Part shown: positions 31,297-38,252 of the stretch, piece after piece
How positions within the stretch are numbered: position 1 is the stretch's first letter
How the letters are laid out: each line of letters begins with the position of its first letter
Source of the DNA: Aeromicrobium ginsengisoli
GTDB taxonomy: Bacteria; Actinomycetota; Actinomycetes; Propionibacteriales; Nocardioidaceae
Assembly: GCF_004134905.2 (NCBI RefSeq)
Contig: NZ_SDPQ02000002.1
Location: 1,054,001-1,118,000, forward strand
Direction: 5' to 3'
DNA length: 64,000 nt
The notes under the pieces: generated by a model
What the model saw: the letters and a program-made list of their open reading frames with translations, nothing else
Database searches by the model: none
Told to the model about the DNA's origin: nothing
Program-made: the position numbers and the translations under genes

Positions 31297-31854
31297 GTGA
31301 TTGACCAGACCCTGCGTGACGCCGACAGCAAGATGGCGCGCGCCGTCGAGCACACCCGCGAGGAGTTCGCGGCGATCCGCACCGGCCGCGCCCACCCGGC
31401 GATGTTCGCCCAGATCACGGCCGACTACTACGGCCAGCAGACCCCGCTCAACCAGCTCGCGGGCTTCCAGGTCCCCGAGCCGCGCACCGTCATCATCCAG
31501 CCCTACGACGCCGGCGCCAAGCCTGCGATCGAGAAGGCCATCCGCGAGTCCGACCTCGGCGTCAACCCGAGCGACGACGGCAAGGTGCTGCGCGTGACGC
31601 TGCCCGAGCTGACCGAGGACCGCCGCAAGGAGTACATCAAGCTCGCCAAGACCAAGGCCGAAGAAGGCCGGGTCTCCGTCCGCAACCTGCGTCGCGCGGC
31701 CAAGCAGGCGCTCGACAAGGCCGAGAAGGACTCCGAGATCAGCAAGGACGAGAACGTCGGCGCCGAGAAGCGCCTCGACGGACTGACCAAGAAGTACGTC
31801 GACACCGTCGACGAGCTGCTCAAGAACAAAGAGGCAGAGCTCCTTGACATCTGA
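31297..31854 (+). CDS. frr: Ribosome recycling factor
   Basis: RRF (185 aa, normal length) splits the post-termination ribosome together with EF-G. Conserved stretches include FAAIRTGRAHPAMF, GSD-equivalent NPSDDGKVLRVTLPELTEDRRKE and VRNLRRAAKQ. The GTG start at 31297 follows GGATGGAGA. Its last 11 bases overlap the cdsA start. Confidence 0.96.
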   Translation: MIDQTLRDADSKMARAVEHTREEFAAIRTGRAHPAMFAQITADYYGQQTPLNQLAGFQVPEPRTVIIQPYDAGAKPAIEKAIRESDLGVNPSDDGKVLRVTLPELTEDRRKEYIKLAKTKAEEGRVSVRNLRRAAKQALDKAEKDSEISKDENVGAEKRLDGLTKKYVDTVDELLKNKEAELLDI

Positions 31855-32719
31855 GTCTCCTGCCGAGACCCCGGAGTCGGCGGAGACACCAGCCGCGGCG
31901 GAGAAGACGAGCCGCGCGGGCCGCAACCTGCCCGCGTCGATCGCGGTCGGTGTCGGCCTGATCGGACTCGTCATCGCGACGCTGTTCATCCAGAAGGAAG
32001 CGTTCATCCCGGTCGTGGTGATCGCGCTCGGCATCGGCGTGCTGGAGCTGACCCGGGCCTTCTCGACGGCGCGCATCAAGATTCCCGTCGCGCCAGTCCT
32101 GACCGGCGGCACCATCATGCTCGTCGGCAGCTACTGGGGCGGCATGGAGACCGCGTCGGTCGCCCTCGCCCTGACGATCATCGGCACGCTGGTCTGGCGG
32201 CTGTCCGACGGCGCAGAGGGCTTCGTACGCGACAGCAGCGCGGGCGTCTTCGTGCTGGGCTACCTCTACCTCATGGGCTCGTTCGTCGTGCTGATGCTGA
32301 CCGAGGACGACGGGCCTTGGCGCATCATCGCGTTCATCGTCGCGACGATCGCCTCCGACATCGGCGGCTACGTCGCCGGCGTGCTGTTCGGCAAGCACCC
32401 GATGGCGCCCACGATCAGCCCCAAGAAGTCCTGGGAGGGCTTCACCGGCTCCCTGATCTTCGGCATCGCCGCAGGCATGGTGACGATCACCTACGCGCTC
32501 GACGGCGACTGGTGGGTCGGCATCATCCTCGGCATCGCCGGCGTCGTGTTCGCGACGCTCGGCGACCTGTCCGAGTCGCTCATCAAGCGTGACCTCGGCA
32601 TCAAGGACATGGGCGACCTGCTGCCCGGGCACGGTGGCCTGATGGATCGCCTCGACTCGCTGATCGCCGTGGCGCCGGTCGCCTGGTTGATCCTGCACAC
32701 GCTCGTCCCGGTCACCTGA
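31844..32719 (+). CDS. cdsA: Phosphatidate cytidylyltransferase (CDP-diacylglycerol synthase)
   Basis: Integral membrane enzyme (291 aa) that makes CDP-diacylglycerol from phosphatidic acid and CTP for phospholipid synthesis. Eight or so hydrophobic segments follow a Glu/Ala-rich cytoplasmic N-terminus. The family signature appears near the end as SLIKRDLGIKDMGDLLPGHG with the DRLDS continuation. The TTG start at 31844 overlaps frr and suggests coupling. Only 19 bases separate it from the next gene. Confidence 0.94.
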   Translation: MTSESPAETPESAETPAAAEKTSRAGRNLPASIAVGVGLIGLVIATLFIQKEAFIPVVVIALGIGVLELTRAFSTARIKIPVAPVLTGGTIMLVGSYWGGMETASVALALTIIGTLVWRLSDGAEGFVRDSSAGVFVLGYLYLMGSFVVLMLTEDDGPWRIIAFIVATIASDIGGYVAGVLFGKHPMAPTISPKKSWEGFTGSLIFGIAAGMVTITYALDGDWWVGIILGIAGVVFATLGDLSESLIKRDLGIKDMGDLLPGHGGLMDRLDSLIAVAPVAWLILHTLVPVT

Positions 32720-32738
32720 TCATGTCGGCGGTCAGCCG

Positions 32739-35192
32739 ATGACGGCGCTGCGGGACTACTCCGCTGCCGTCACCCAGCCCACGCTGACCGGCGACCCGGC
32801 GCGCTACGACGAGGTCGTCGGCCCCGACGGCTCACTGCGTGCGGGCTGGAAGCTGCTCGCCGAGACCGCCGTGGCGCTGACCGATGCGGACCTGCGCCGC
32901 GTCGGCCGCGACATCGAGCGGTTCCTGGCCAACGACGGGGTGACCTACACCCCGCCGGAGGACCAGCCGGGACCGTGGCGGCTCGACCCCATCCCGCTCA
33001 TCATCGACGCGGCCGAGTGGGCACAGCTGGAGATCGGGCTGGCACAGCGTACGGAGCTGCTCAACGCGATCCTGGTCGACCTCTACGGCCCGCAACGCCT
33101 GCTCTCGTCGGGTGTGCTGCCACCCGCAGTCGTGTTCGGCCACGAGGGCTTCCTTCGCGTCGCCGCCCGGGCATCCGCGGCTGACCCGCAGCCGCTGCTC
33201 CTCGCCGCGGCCGACCTCGGCCGCAACGCGGCGGGGGAGTGGCAGGTGATCGCCGACCGGGCTCAGGCGCCGTCGGGCATCGGTTTCGCGATGGAGAACC
33301 GCAGGGTCATCTCGCGGGTCATGCCGGAGATGTACCGCCAGGCCGGGTTGCACCGCATGGCACCGTTCTTCCAGGCGCTGAGGTCGACGTTGATCGACTC
33401 GGCCCCGGGCAGCAGCCCCAACCCCCGCGTCGTCGTGCTGTCGCCCGGCACGCACTCGGAGACCGCGTACGACCAGGCGTTCGTCGCGTCGAGCCTCGGG
33501 TTCCCGCTCGTCGAGGGCAGCGACCTCGTGATGCGCAACGGCGCGGTGTGGATGCGGGTGTTCGGCCGGCTCGAGCGGGTCGACGTGATCATGCGCCGTG
33601 TCGACGCCGCATGGAGCGACGCGCTCGAGCTGCGCAAGAACTCGCAGCTCGGCGTCGCCGGGCTCTCCGAGGCGGTGCGCCGCGGCACCGTGCGGGTCGT
33701 CAACGGACTGGGGTCCGGGGTGCTGGAGAACCCGGGTCTGCTGCCGTTCCTGTCGGCCATGTGCGAGACGTTGCTCGACGAGCCGCTGCGCCTGCCGTCG
33801 GTGCAGACCTACTGGACCGGCGATCCGCGCTCCCAGGCATACGTGCTGGACAACCTCGACGATCTCGTCGTGCGGTCGATCGACCAGCCCACCGAGCTGG
33901 TCCGGCCCCGCGACGAGCTGCGGGCAGCGATCCTCGCCGAGCCGCACCGCTACGTGGGGCAGGAGCCGCTCGCGCTCTCGCAGTCACCGACGCTCGACGC
34001 GCGTGGCGTGCGCCCCCAGGTGCTCACGCTGCGGACGTTCACGCTGCGCTACGGCTCGACCTACCGGCCGCTGATCGGTGGTCTCGCCAACGTCTTCGAG
34101 TCGGGTCGGCCGGCGTCGAGCAAGGACGTCTGGGTGCTCAAGGACAAGCCGGAGGACCCCGACCAGGGCCTGACGGACGTGTTGCCGCTGACGAACGTAC
34201 GCGCACCCGCCGCGATGGTGCCGCGCGTGCTCGAGGACATGTTCTGGTTCGGCCGCTACGCCGAGCGGGCCGAGGACATGCTGCGCCTCGTCCTGACCGC
34301 GCACGCGAGCGCCGAGGACTTCCGGTCGCGCCCGCAGTCTGCCGGCGGCGCGAGTCTCGCGGTGCTGATGGGGGCGATCGCCCGCCTCAGCGGATCGCCG
34401 TTCGGGCCGGACCAGCTCGACGAGGACTTCCGGTCGTTGCTGCTCGATGCGCACCGGCCCGGCTCGGTCGGCCAGTCGATCAGCGCGCTGCGCGACGCCG
34501 CCCAGAGCGTCCGAGATCAGCTCTCGCCCGACACGTGGCAGGCGTTCAGCTCGACCGACAGCGCTGCCGCCGCGCTGCGGAGCTATCACTACAGCCATCA
34601 GGTCGCCGAGAGCGCCGGCCGCATGTTGACCGGCATCCTGTCGCTGCAGGGCGTCACGGCCAACATGATCCGCGATCCCGGCTGGCGGATGATCGGCACG
34701 GGCCGGGCGGTCGAACGCGGTCTGCAGCTGTGCCACCTGCTGCGCTCGACCACGACCGTGCGTCGCGGCATCGACGTCGACCGTGACCTCAACATCGCCG
34801 TGCTGTCCGCGGCCGAGAGCGCCGTCACCCATCGCAGGCGCTATCGCGGATACGTACGCCTGTCCGGTGTCCTCGAGCTGTTGCTGGCCGATCCGGACAA
34901 CCCGCGATCGCTCGCGTTCGGCATCGCCGAGCTGCGGGAGCACCTGGCCGCGATGCCCGGGTCGACCGGGTCGACGCGTCCCGAGCGGCTGCTCGACGAC
35001 CTCGCGGACGAGCTCGACCGCGCCGACATCGCCGCACTGACGGCGATCGCAGGGGAGAACCGGCCCAACCTCGAGCGGTTCCTCGACGGCTACGTCGCCC
35101 AGCTGACCCGCTTCGCGGACGCCGTCGCCGAGCTGCACTTCGCGGCCGGTCCGGCGCCGCGGTCCTTCGGCTTCGCGACGGTGACGGAATGA
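32739..35192 (+). CDS. Circularly permuted ATP-grasp protein fused to an alpha-E domain
   Basis: Two-domain protein (817 aa). Residues 1 to about 490 match the circularly permuted type 2 ATP-grasp family (DUF404/DUF407), with segments DLYGPQRLLSSGVLPP, GFAMENRRVISRVMPEMY and RNGAVWMRVFGRLERVDVIMRR, and residues SVQTYWTGD and SKDVWVLKDK. ATP-grasp enzymes ligate a carboxylate to an amine. From about residue 495 the alpha-E domain (DUF403) begins with MFWFGRYAERAEDMLRL. In many genomes these are separate genes. The next gene overlaps it by 4 bases. Comparative work predicted that such operons make or attach short peptides; the product here is unknown. Confidence 0.9.
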   Translation: MTALRDYSAAVTQPTLTGDPARYDEVVGPDGSLRAGWKLLAETAVALTDADLRRVGRDIERFLANDGVTYTPPEDQPGPWRLDPIPLIIDAAEWAQLEIGLAQRTELLNAILVDLYGPQRLLSSGVLPPAVVFGHEGFLRVAARASAADPQPLLLAAADLGRNAAGEWQVIADRAQAPSGIGFAMENRRVISRVMPEMYRQAGLHRMAPFFQALRSTLIDSAPGSSPNPRVVVLSPGTHSETAYDQAFVASSLGFPLVEGSDLVMRNGAVWMRVFGRLERVDVIMRRVDAAWSDALELRKNSQLGVAGLSEAVRRGTVRVVNGLGSGVLENPGLLPFLSAMCETLLDEPLRLPSVQTYWTGDPRSQAYVLDNLDDLVVRSIDQPTELVRPRDELRAAILAEPHRYVGQEPLALSQSPTLDARGVRPQVLTLRTFTLRYGSTYRPLIGGLANVFESGRPASSKDVWVLKDKPEDPDQGLTDVLPLTNVRAPAAMVPRVLEDMFWFGRYAERAEDMLRLVLTAHASAEDFRSRPQSAGGASLAVLMGAIARLSGSPFGPDQLDEDFRSLLLDAHRPGSVGQSISALRDAAQSVRDQLSPDTWQAFSSTDSAAAALRSYHYSHQVAESAGRMLTGILSLQGVTANMIRDPGWRMIGTGRAVERGLQLCHLLRSTTTVRRGIDVDRDLNIAVLSAAESAVTHRRRYRGYVRLSGVLELLLADPDNPRSLAFGIAELREHLAAMPGSTGSTRPERLLDDLADELDRADIAALTAIAGENRPNLERFLDGYVAQLTRFADAVAELHFAAGPAPRSFGFATVTE

Positions 35193-36082
35193 CGACCTAT
35201 GCGGTGAGCCACCGCACGACGTACTCGTACGACGAGGACGTCAGCGACAGCCTCGGGATCGCCTACCTCGTGCCGCGCGAGCTGCCGTGGCAGCGCGTCG
35301 TCTCGCACGACCTGGTGCTCGATCCGGCGACCGACGACGCGTCCACCGACCTCGACTACTACGGCAACTCGGCGACCTACTTCCAGGTGACCACGCCGCA
35401 CCGGGTGCTCGACATCCTCGCGACGAGCCAGGTCGAGGTCGACACCCCGTCCTACGACCCCGAGGCGCTCGCGGTGCCCTGGGAGTCGGCGCAGCCGATG
35501 CAGCGTGACGACGTCGCCGACGCGTGGCAGGCACAGGACTTCGCGCTCACCTCGTCGCTCGCCGACCAGACCGCCGAGGCGCAGGCGTACGCAGCGCAGT
35601 CGCTGACTCCCGGCCGGCCCGTCGGCGAGGCCGTGACCGACCTGATGCACCGCATCCACGCCGACTTCACGTACGACAAGACCGCGACGACGGTCACCTC
35701 GACGGTCGACGACATCTTCGACAAGCGGGCCGGCGTCTGCCAGGACTTCGCCCACCTCACGCTCGCCTGCCTGCGGACGCACGGCCTCGCGGTGCGCTAC
35801 GTCAGCGGCTACCTCGCGACCACGCCACCGCCGGGCAAGGAGCGCGTCGTCGGGGCCGATGCGACGCACGCCTGGGCTGCGGTCTGGATCCCCGACGGTG
35901 GATGGCTCGCGCTCGACCCGACGAACGACCACTGGGTCGACGACCGCTACATCACCGTCGCGTGGGGCCGCGACTACGCCGACGTACCTCCCGTCAAGGG
36001 CGTGATCTTCACCGAGGCGAAGAAGTCGACCCTCAAGGTCGAGGTCGACGTCGCGCCGACGAGCGAGTCGCCGCAACCCTGA
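35189..36082 (+). CDS. Transglutaminase-like cysteine protease-fold protein
   Basis: Cytosolic transglutaminase-like protein (297 aa) with no signal peptide. The bacterial transglutaminase N-terminal domain starts YAVSHRTTYSYDEDVSDS. The catalytic triad segments are GVCQDFAHLTLACLR (Cys near residue 181), DATHAWAAVWIP (His near 227) and LALDPTNDH (Asp). Such proteins act as peptidases or amidotransferases and nearly always accompany the permuted ATP-grasp/alpha-E genes. The start overlaps the ATP-grasp stop (ATGA), implying coupled translation. Confidence 0.92.
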   Translation: MTTYAVSHRTTYSYDEDVSDSLGIAYLVPRELPWQRVVSHDLVLDPATDDASTDLDYYGNSATYFQVTTPHRVLDILATSQVEVDTPSYDPEALAVPWESAQPMQRDDVADAWQAQDFALTSSLADQTAEAQAYAAQSLTPGRPVGEAVTDLMHRIHADFTYDKTATTVTSTVDDIFDKRAGVCQDFAHLTLACLRTHGLAVRYVSGYLATTPPPGKERVVGADATHAWAAVWIPDGGWLALDPTNDHWVDDRYITVAWGRDYADVPPVKGVIFTEAKKSTLKVEVDVAPTSESPQP

Positions 36083-36094
36083 CAGGATTGGTCT

Positions 36095-37078
36095 GTGAAA
36101 GCCTTCTCCTGCCGTGTCTGCGGCAACGCGCTCTACTTCGGCAACTCGAGCTGCGTCCAGTGCGGCACCCGCCTGGGGTTCTCCCGCGACGAGAAGGCGA
36201 TCGTGCCGGTCGACACGCACGGCCAGTACGTCGACGCATCCGGGCGGGTGTGGCACGTGTGCGCCAACTCCGGGCTCTCCGGCTGCACCTGGCTGGCGGA
36301 AGCTCCCGGTGGCCGCTGCTTCAGCTGTGAGCTCACCCGCACACGGCCGTCCGATGACGACGTCAAGGGCTTGTCGGAGTATCCGATCGCCGAGAGCGCC
36401 AAGCGTCGCCTGATCGTCGAGCTCGACGACCTCGGCTTCCCGATCCCCACGCGGCGGGACGACCCCGACACGGGGCTGGCGTTCGACCTGCTCTCGAGCG
36501 TCAACGAGAAGGTGACGATCGGCCACGCCGACGGCATCATCACGCTCGACCTCGCCGAGAGCAACGATGTCCACCGGGAGCAGCTGCGGGTGTCGATGGA
36601 CGAGCCCTATCGCACGATGCTGGGGCACTTCCGGCACGAGATCGGGCACTTCTACTGGCAGCAGCTGGTCGCCGGCGACCTGCTCGAGGCGTTCCGCGAG
36701 CTGTTCGGCGACGAGCGCGCGAGCTACGCCGACGCGGTCGGGCGGCACTACAGTCAGGGTGCGCCGGCCGGCTGGCAGGACCGGTTCATCAGCCAGTACG
36801 CCACGATGCACCCATGGGAGGACTTCGCCGAGACGTTCGCGCACTACCTGCACATCTGCGACACCGTCGAGACGGCCTCGGCGTACGGGCTGGCCACCGT
36901 CGCATCGCCCCAGCACTTCTCGTCGTTCCGGGAACTCGTCACCGGCGTGTGGGTGCCGCTGAGCATCGCGCTCAACCAGATCAACCGCAGCATGGGCAAG
37001 GACCCGCTCTATCCGTTCGTCATCCCGCCGCCCGTGCTCGACAAGCTGGACTTCGTCGCGCGGCTCTCTCGGACGTAG
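36095..37078 (+). CDS. Zinc-ribbon putative metallopeptidase
   Basis: Protein (327 aa) with two N-terminal Cys pairs forming a zinc ribbon (CRVCGN, CVQCGTR) and a further Cys group (HVC, SGC, RCFSC). A metallopeptidase domain follows, with [11 protein letters not shown] near residue 182. The third-ligand region [17 protein letters not shown] lies near 235-251. This matches the zinc-binding putative peptidase family often found next to alpha-E/transglutaminase genes. The GTG start is preceded by CAGGAT with 6 bases between, so it may also have its own leaderless promoter. It probably processes the product of the preceding two genes. Confidence 0.87.
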
Positions 37079-37106: not shown

Positions 37107-38252
37107 ATGAGAGAATGGAGCGTGTCCTCCGTCAACCCGAATCCACTGCCGCTCGTCTTCGAGCAGAAGCGTGGCCGCGTGAAACCACCGCGGCATCTGG
37201 CCGACCTGACGGCCGACGAGCGTACGGCTGTCGCTGAGGCGCTGGGCGAACCCGCGTTCCGGGTCAAGCAGGTCGCCAACCACTACTACGCGCGTCTCGA
37301 GCGCGACCCCGCCAACATGACCGACCTGCCGGCAGCGAGCCGCGACCGGATCGTCGCCGAGCTCCTGCCGACGCTGCTCAACCCCGTGCGCACCATGGAG
37401 GCCGACAAGGGCGCCACGGTCAAGTCGCTCTGGAAGCTGTTCGACGGAGCGCTCGTCGAGTCGGTGCTGATGCGCTACACCGACCGCGCCACGATCTGCG
37501 TCTCGAGCCAGGCCGGCTGCGGCATGGCGTGCCCGTTCTGCGCGACCGGACAGGGCGGCCTGGAGCGCAACATGAGCTGTGCCGAGATCGTCGACCAGGT
37601 CCAGGACGCCGCAGGCAAGATGACCCGCGGCGAGATCGCCGGCGGGCCCGGTCGGCTCTCCAACGTCGTGTTCATGGGCATGGGTGAGCCGATGGCCAAC
37701 TACAAGGCCGTGATCGGCGCCGTACGCCGCATGGTGGCGCCCGCGCCCGACGGCCTCGGCATGTCGGCGCGCAACATCACGGTCAGCACCGTCGGCCTCG
37801 TGCCGCGCATGAAGCAGCTCGCCGACGAGGGCATCCCCGTGACCTTGGCACTGTCGCTGCACGCACCCGACGACGAGCTGCGCAACGAGCTCGTCCCGAT
37901 CAACACGCGCTGGTCCGTGCACGAGGCGGTCGAAGCGGCTTGGGAGTACGCCCAGAAGACCAAGCGTCGTGTCTCGATCGAGTACGCCATGATCAAGGAC
38001 ATCAACGACCAGGCCTGGCGCGCCGACCTGCTGGGCGACGTCCTGCAGTCGTACGGCGACTGGGGCTGGGTGCACGTCAACCTGATCCCGCTCAACCCGA
38101 CGCCGGGGTCCATGTGGACCGCCTCACGACCCGAGGACGAGCGCGAGTTCGTCCGTCGGCTGATCGCCAAGGGCATCCCGACGACGGTCCGCGACACCCG
38201 CGGCAGCGACATCGACGGCGCCTGCGGCCAGCTCGCCGCCGTCGAAGGCTGA
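37107..38252 (+). CDS. rlmN: 23S rRNA (adenine-2503-C2)-methyltransferase RlmN
   Basis: Radical SAM enzyme (381 aa) that methylates C2 of A2503 in 23S rRNA and A37 of some tRNAs. The iron-sulfur motif [11 protein letters not shown] near residues 137-147 has the CxxxCxxC spacing. Other features are [11 protein letters not shown] near 190 and the catalytic Cys near the C-terminus in DIDGACGQL. The ATG at 37107 is one option; a GTG at 37122 follows GAGAAT closely and could be a leaderless start. It returns the map to the conserved backbone after the three-gene cassette. Confidence 0.95.

Follow-up and report, generated by a model that had tools for sequence, protein, structure and literature searches.

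The open reading frames of the window, the 64,000-nucleotide stretch of Aeromicrobium ginsengisoli DNA analysed here, were checked and revealed three genes in tight succession between cdsA and rlmN, with the same coordinates, 4-base overlap and 12-base gap as given in the initial annotation. The genes and the sites within them are located as follows.

31844..32719, + strand: cdsA, upstream neighbour, with a 19-base gap before the fused gene
32739..35192, + strand: fused putative pseudo-ATP-grasp/alpha-E protein (P0001), 817 aa (Pfam, AF2 model, 3N6X fold match)
32994..34094, + strand: circularly permuted ATP-grasp domain of P0001, residues 86-452, nucleotide/Mg site degenerate (PF14403, motif comparison)
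33252..33260, + strand: codons of A172-D173-R174, where catalytic relatives have E-D-N, the Mg-binding ExN (motif match to GspS E330/N332)
33873..33908, + strand: R379 at the position of the ATP lysine (GspS K533), and the stretch in which the Gly-rich ATP loop is deleted
34215..35141, + strand: Alpha-E domain of P0001, residues 493-801, signature residues retained (PF04168, E 7e-62)
35189..36082, + strand: transglutaminase-like enzyme (TG), 297 aa, overlapping the fused gene by 4 bases (Pfam)
36095..37078, + strand: zinc-ribbon and Peptidase_Mx metallopeptidase (MX), 327 aa, GTG start, 12 bases after TG (Pfam)
36635..36649, + strand: HEIGH zinc-binding motif of the peptidase
37107..38252, + strand: rlmN, downstream neighbour

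Pfam searches of all three proteins confirmed the domain identities proposed earlier. P0001 carries CP_ATPgrasp_2 (PF14403, E 4e-125) and Alpha-E (PF04168) on a single chain, scoring 418 and 210 bits against curated cut-offs of 32 and 20.8; the 297-aa protein has Bact_transglu_N and Transglut_core, and the 327-aa protein Zn_ribbon_DZR_6 and Peptidase_Mx (E 2e-98). A search of NCBIfam found no equivalog. No transmembrane or signal-like segment was seen in any of the three proteins, supporting the suggestion of a cytosolic system. The closest named relative is from Aeromicrobium sp. Root344 (97% identity). Among 80 named relatives TG adjoins the fused gene in 79, and the peptidase is present in 63 when counted inside the stretch retrieved around each locus; the trio is thus co-conserved. 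Members of these families occur widely among bacteria, M. tuberculosis included, and have no known product.

In ATP-grasp enzymes of the glutathionylspermidine/glutathione synthetase type, Mg and ATP are held by an ExN motif, a lysine, a Gly-rich loop and an NSSxGGG motif. The matching motifs of E. coli GspS, checked for position, are VYEYN (E330/N332) and KPIAGRCGSN (K533), and the roles of its D318, E330, N332 and K533 are established. Profile alignment of the split ATP-grasp family with E. coli GspS gave no meaningful alignment, and residue roles were therefore transferred from GspS by local motif and general fold match. The split paralogue encoded elsewhere in the same genome carries VLEDN, LVLKPVDGSGGKGIVIGP and NSSRGGGSKDTW, and its counterparts in P0001 are VIADR and LVVRSIDQPT; the loop deleted from P0001 reads DGSGGKGIVIGP in the split copy. 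Measured against a competent ATP-grasp enzyme, P0001 has Ala for E163, Arg for N165 and Arg for K370, a deleted loop and no NSSxGGG motif. Comparison of fused with split rows (duplicates counted) found E163, N165, K370, the Gly loop, D430, R451 and N462-G468 lost from the fused forms, with N165 replaced by Arg in 91% and K370 mostly by Arg, while D150, P169-S170-G171, R277-R278, D280, Q408, R432, K470-D471 and W473, among others, were kept.

The overall fold has survived these changes. The AF2 model of P0001 (pLDDT 82) matched PDB 3N6X with Z 40.2 and an rmsd of 3.4 over 427 residues, and glutathione synthetases with Z ~23-25. The initial annotation had described a fusion of two ligase domains acting as an ATP-dependent ligase, and had made this depend on the presence of the ATP-binding residues. 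The fusion is real; the ligase role is not supported, since the Mg/ATP site is largely absent. Nor was alpha-E borne out as the second ligase domain, as it is not known to be one. From its motifs, the permuted ATP-grasp domain of P0001 is most likely catalytically dead, and P0001 a putative pseudoenzyme.

Loss of the site was found to be a property of a whole clade. ExN is absent from 130 fused homologues (22 family, 21 class, 80 named and 7 plasmid sequences, some loci being counted twice), which come from Actinomycetota, alpha-, beta- and gammaproteobacteria and one acidobacterium, and four more degenerate fused sequences were obtained from another actinobacterial class. Every split paralogue, and PDB 3N6X as well, has ExN, the ATP lysine, the Gly loop and NSSxGGG, all of them lost from the fused clade. 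A tree computed without the motif columns placed the degenerate fused proteins of Actinomycetota, Proteobacteria and Acidobacteria in one clade with an SH-aLRT of 100. The degenerate ATP-grasp domain is under purifying selection, with dN/dS of 0.04-0.21, below that of TG and MX in 7/7 comparisons. Decay in a single strain, or a pseudogene, is ruled out by the clade-wide loss together with this low dN/dS.

The sole fused protein bearing ExN, L104 (genome G158), keeps all ATP-site motifs and is nested among the split enzymes; therefore fusion alone is not the cause of the loss. L104 is an independent ATP-grasp/alpha-E fusion and a natural catalytic counterpart of the degenerate one. The tree also contained a third type of circularly permuted ATP-grasp protein, mostly of 845-940 aa, with an intact ATP site, no detectable alpha-E and a clade of its own (L052, L057, L071-L075, L079-L081, L083-L085, L087, L089, L092, L096, L097, L099 and L101).

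The other active or signature sites of the cassette are intact. The alpha-E signature common to fused and split forms comprises W503, R506, Y507, E509, R510, R516, R592, G638, G655, E659, R660 and P722-R723-S724; a fold search with this part of the P0001 model gave uninformative matches, at the level of a helical bundle only (Z < 10). TG has the Cys-His-Asp triad of a transglutaminase-like cysteine enzyme, C184 and H227 being present in 100% and D243 in 99% of 133 distinct relatives. In MX, the ribbon cysteines, HExxH (181-185) and E242/E246 are invariant in 92 relatives, in keeping with Peptidase_Mx, and its model (pLDDT 87) has a zincin-like fold with a weak best match of Z 8.8 over 171 residues. 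Peptidase_Mx was found in 28/37 family genomes with PF14403 and in 0/44 without it. The zinc peptidase stands alone between cdsA and rlmN, the fused gene being absent, in L214 (G064) and L215 (G057); because it persists there, the peptidase may also function without the fused protein.

The split paralogue lies on another contig of the same genome (C3, about 637.5-640.9 kb), where a 532-aa ATP-grasp protein with an intact ATP site is followed by alpha-E and transglutaminase genes. Among 81 actinobacterial genomes of the family, the fused form was present in 23 and the split form in 30, and all 23 fused carriers had the split form. The class sample, also actinobacterial, added 22 fused genomes, part of their fused loci being assigned by score and frame length, and each had the split form too. 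As expected of an obligate partner, every genome with the fused form in the two surveys also had the split form (45/45), although the hypergeometric P values ignore shared ancestry. Both forms are also present in G365, a genome of another class. Occurrence of the fused form only in genomes with an intact split form makes a non-catalytic partner role most likely. In a Nocardioides genome (G237; L211, L212) the fused gene is frameshifted and lacks TG and MX, and the split gene is truncated and lacks alpha-E and TG, a case of the two loci decaying together; one Aeromicrobium genome (G074) is without the fused form, the split form and the peptidase.

The two forms are linked in one operon elsewhere. 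On an Enterobacter roggenkampii plasmid (L203) the gene row is split ATP-grasp with ExN, alpha-E, TG-DUF2126, fused protein without ExN, and TG; the plasmid is of type IncFII, with IS26 close by. In Caballeronia (L209) an active-type pair, a degenerate fusion and TG stand in one row, the split copy being cut, without a readable ExN. In another actinobacterial class (L223-L225), split ATP-grasp and alpha-E are directly followed by a still more eroded fused copy and then by TG; the fused copies also lack the C-terminal ATP-grasp half, and in L224 a peptidase lies upstream of this row.

The cassette was found between cdsA and rlmN in every Aeromicrobium locus with readable flanks, and its GC and GC3 match those of its neighbours. 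On this synteny and composition we reject horizontal insertion between cdsA and rlmN, and the earlier suggestion of a transferable module is not supported; over long time scales, other genera and plasmids do carry the module at different places. In many Aeromicrobium a gene for TG-DUF2126, a putative amidoligase of ~1,098 aa, separates cdsA from the fused gene (window 32719-32739 compared with L043 and L125-L131), and 52/80 named loci have it next to or near the fused gene. The window genome and the two relatives nearest to it have no such gene, which leaves a 19-base gap. No DUF2126 was found elsewhere in the window genome, and a DUF2126 partner supplied from another locus is thereby ruled out. 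Given the position shared across the genus and the TG-DUF2126 gene of the relatives, we therefore conclude that the cassette is a resident locus and not a recent insertion, from which one upstream gene was probably lost cleanly.

On this evidence we propose, with moderate confidence, that P0001 is a pseudoenzyme combining a dead ATP-grasp domain with an intact alpha-E domain, and that it serves the split ATP-grasp/alpha-E/TG operon as an obligate non-catalytic partner. It would supply the active split enzyme with alpha-E and a peptide-synthetase-like, ATP-less domain, and could act as its scaffold, activator or substrate-presenting subunit. The two would be physical partners. The split enzyme on C3 would carry out ATP-dependent amide ligation, and in many relatives, though not in the window genome, the upstream TG-DUF2126 amidoligase might add a second ligation. 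The transglutaminase might make, transfer or break (iso)amide bonds, the cytosolic zinc peptidase could trim or remove the product, and the substrate may be a peptide or a protein. More tentatively, and with somewhat less than even confidence, the pseudo-ATP-grasp–alpha-E clade may be an ancient one of several phyla that forms a heteromer with the active enzyme, the two constituting a catalytic/non-catalytic amidoligase pair that builds or attaches a peptide, with DUF2126, TG and peptidase in the same pathway.

Retention of the fold and conservation of D159, Q408, R432 and K462 might suggest that P0001 is an ordinary ATP-dependent peptide ligase with non-canonical ATP/Mg residues; however, the Glu and Asn of ExN, the ATP lysine, the Gly-rich loop, D430 and NSSxGGG are jointly lost, and L223-L225 lack the entire C-terminal half, so that we regard this as very improbable. 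A changed activity at the old site is possible because some family-wide residues persist near it (D159, R286-R287, D289, Q408, R432 and K462-D463). If so, the site would have a new catalytic role or bind another small ligand, and P0001 would itself be an enzyme or sensor, an idea that draws on replacements specific to the clade and conserved within it: N to R174 (91%), R to Q176 (95%) and S to G182 (100%), and likewise N to S240, A to T242, E to D245 and H to Q246. However, no new catalytic-looking constellation is apparent, and strict dependence on the split enzyme better matches a partner role; we consider this alternative unlikely, if the least improbable of those weighed here.

The degenerate domain might also be a mere structural remnant, with alpha-E as the working part, a second copy that has no partners but the neighbouring TG and peptidase. 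The intact alpha-E signature, and the lineage in which a half-eroded ATP-grasp accompanies a retained alpha-E, are consistent with this. Yet the domain has evolved about as slowly as alpha-E, and 68 residues nearly invariant in active enzymes are kept in it, which makes a remnant rather unlikely, a little more so than a new role for the site.

With P0001 as a putative non-catalytic partner, one ATP-grasp copy is apparently dead and tied to the other, and this points to the protein worth assaying for ligase activity. The pairing of a dead with an active copy predicts a heteromeric complex and allows a clean epistasis test over two loci. A further gain is a correction to the automatic label "circularly permuted type 2 ATP-grasp protein", which covers live and dead members alike.

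Among known proteins, PDB 3N6X, a Methylobacillus circularly permuted ATP-grasp protein described as "putative glutathionylspermidine synthase", has the same fold as P0001 (32% identity, Z 40.2) but retains the motifs (ExN, Lys, Gly-loop and NSSQGGG) that are lost in P0001. Rv2566-Rv2569c and Rv2409c-Rv2411c of M. tuberculosis presumably represent the same arrangement of fused and split forms at two loci, and genomes grouping with Tsukamurella in the tree also have the fused and split pattern. The C3 split operon, with its intact ATP site, repeats the order of ATP-grasp, alpha-E and TG seen in the operons of ATP-grasp, alpha-E, transglutaminase and Anbu on a Klebsiella plasmid (L210), in Y. 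bercovieri and in P. putida (PP_2685-2688). In the window cassette a zinc peptidase takes the place of Anbu, and the ATP-grasp is degenerate. No Anbu-like gene was found in the window cassette or the C3 split locus. The only two proteasome-family genes of the genome lie side by side on contig C1 and were read as prcBA, and an Anbu partner is thus rejected. Phosphate release from ATP has been shown for the split-type ATP-grasp of the Y. bercovieri operon, while pull-down showed no specific complex among the proteins of that operon (PMC6376114), which weighs against a physical partnership here. In P. putida, related split operons that include Anbu respond to nitrogen limitation with an increase (PMC8050072, PMC5666114), and by analogy only the present system may be linked to nitrogen limitation.

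A literature search outside Iyer et al. 2009 found no prior report of an inactive ATP-grasp of this kind. Circularly permuted ATP-grasp (COG2308), alpha-E (COG2307), transglutaminase and DUF2126 make up predicted amidoligase systems (Iyer et al. 2009, as quoted in PMC5666114 and PMC6376114), and the kinship to them proposed in the initial annotation is supported. As far as these quotations describe them, those systems have the same domain families, and relatives of the fused locus combine TG-DUF2126, fused ATP-grasp/alpha-E and TG; the window genome differs from them in that it has no DUF2126 and in that its fused ATP-grasp is a degenerate one, linked to an active copy at another locus.
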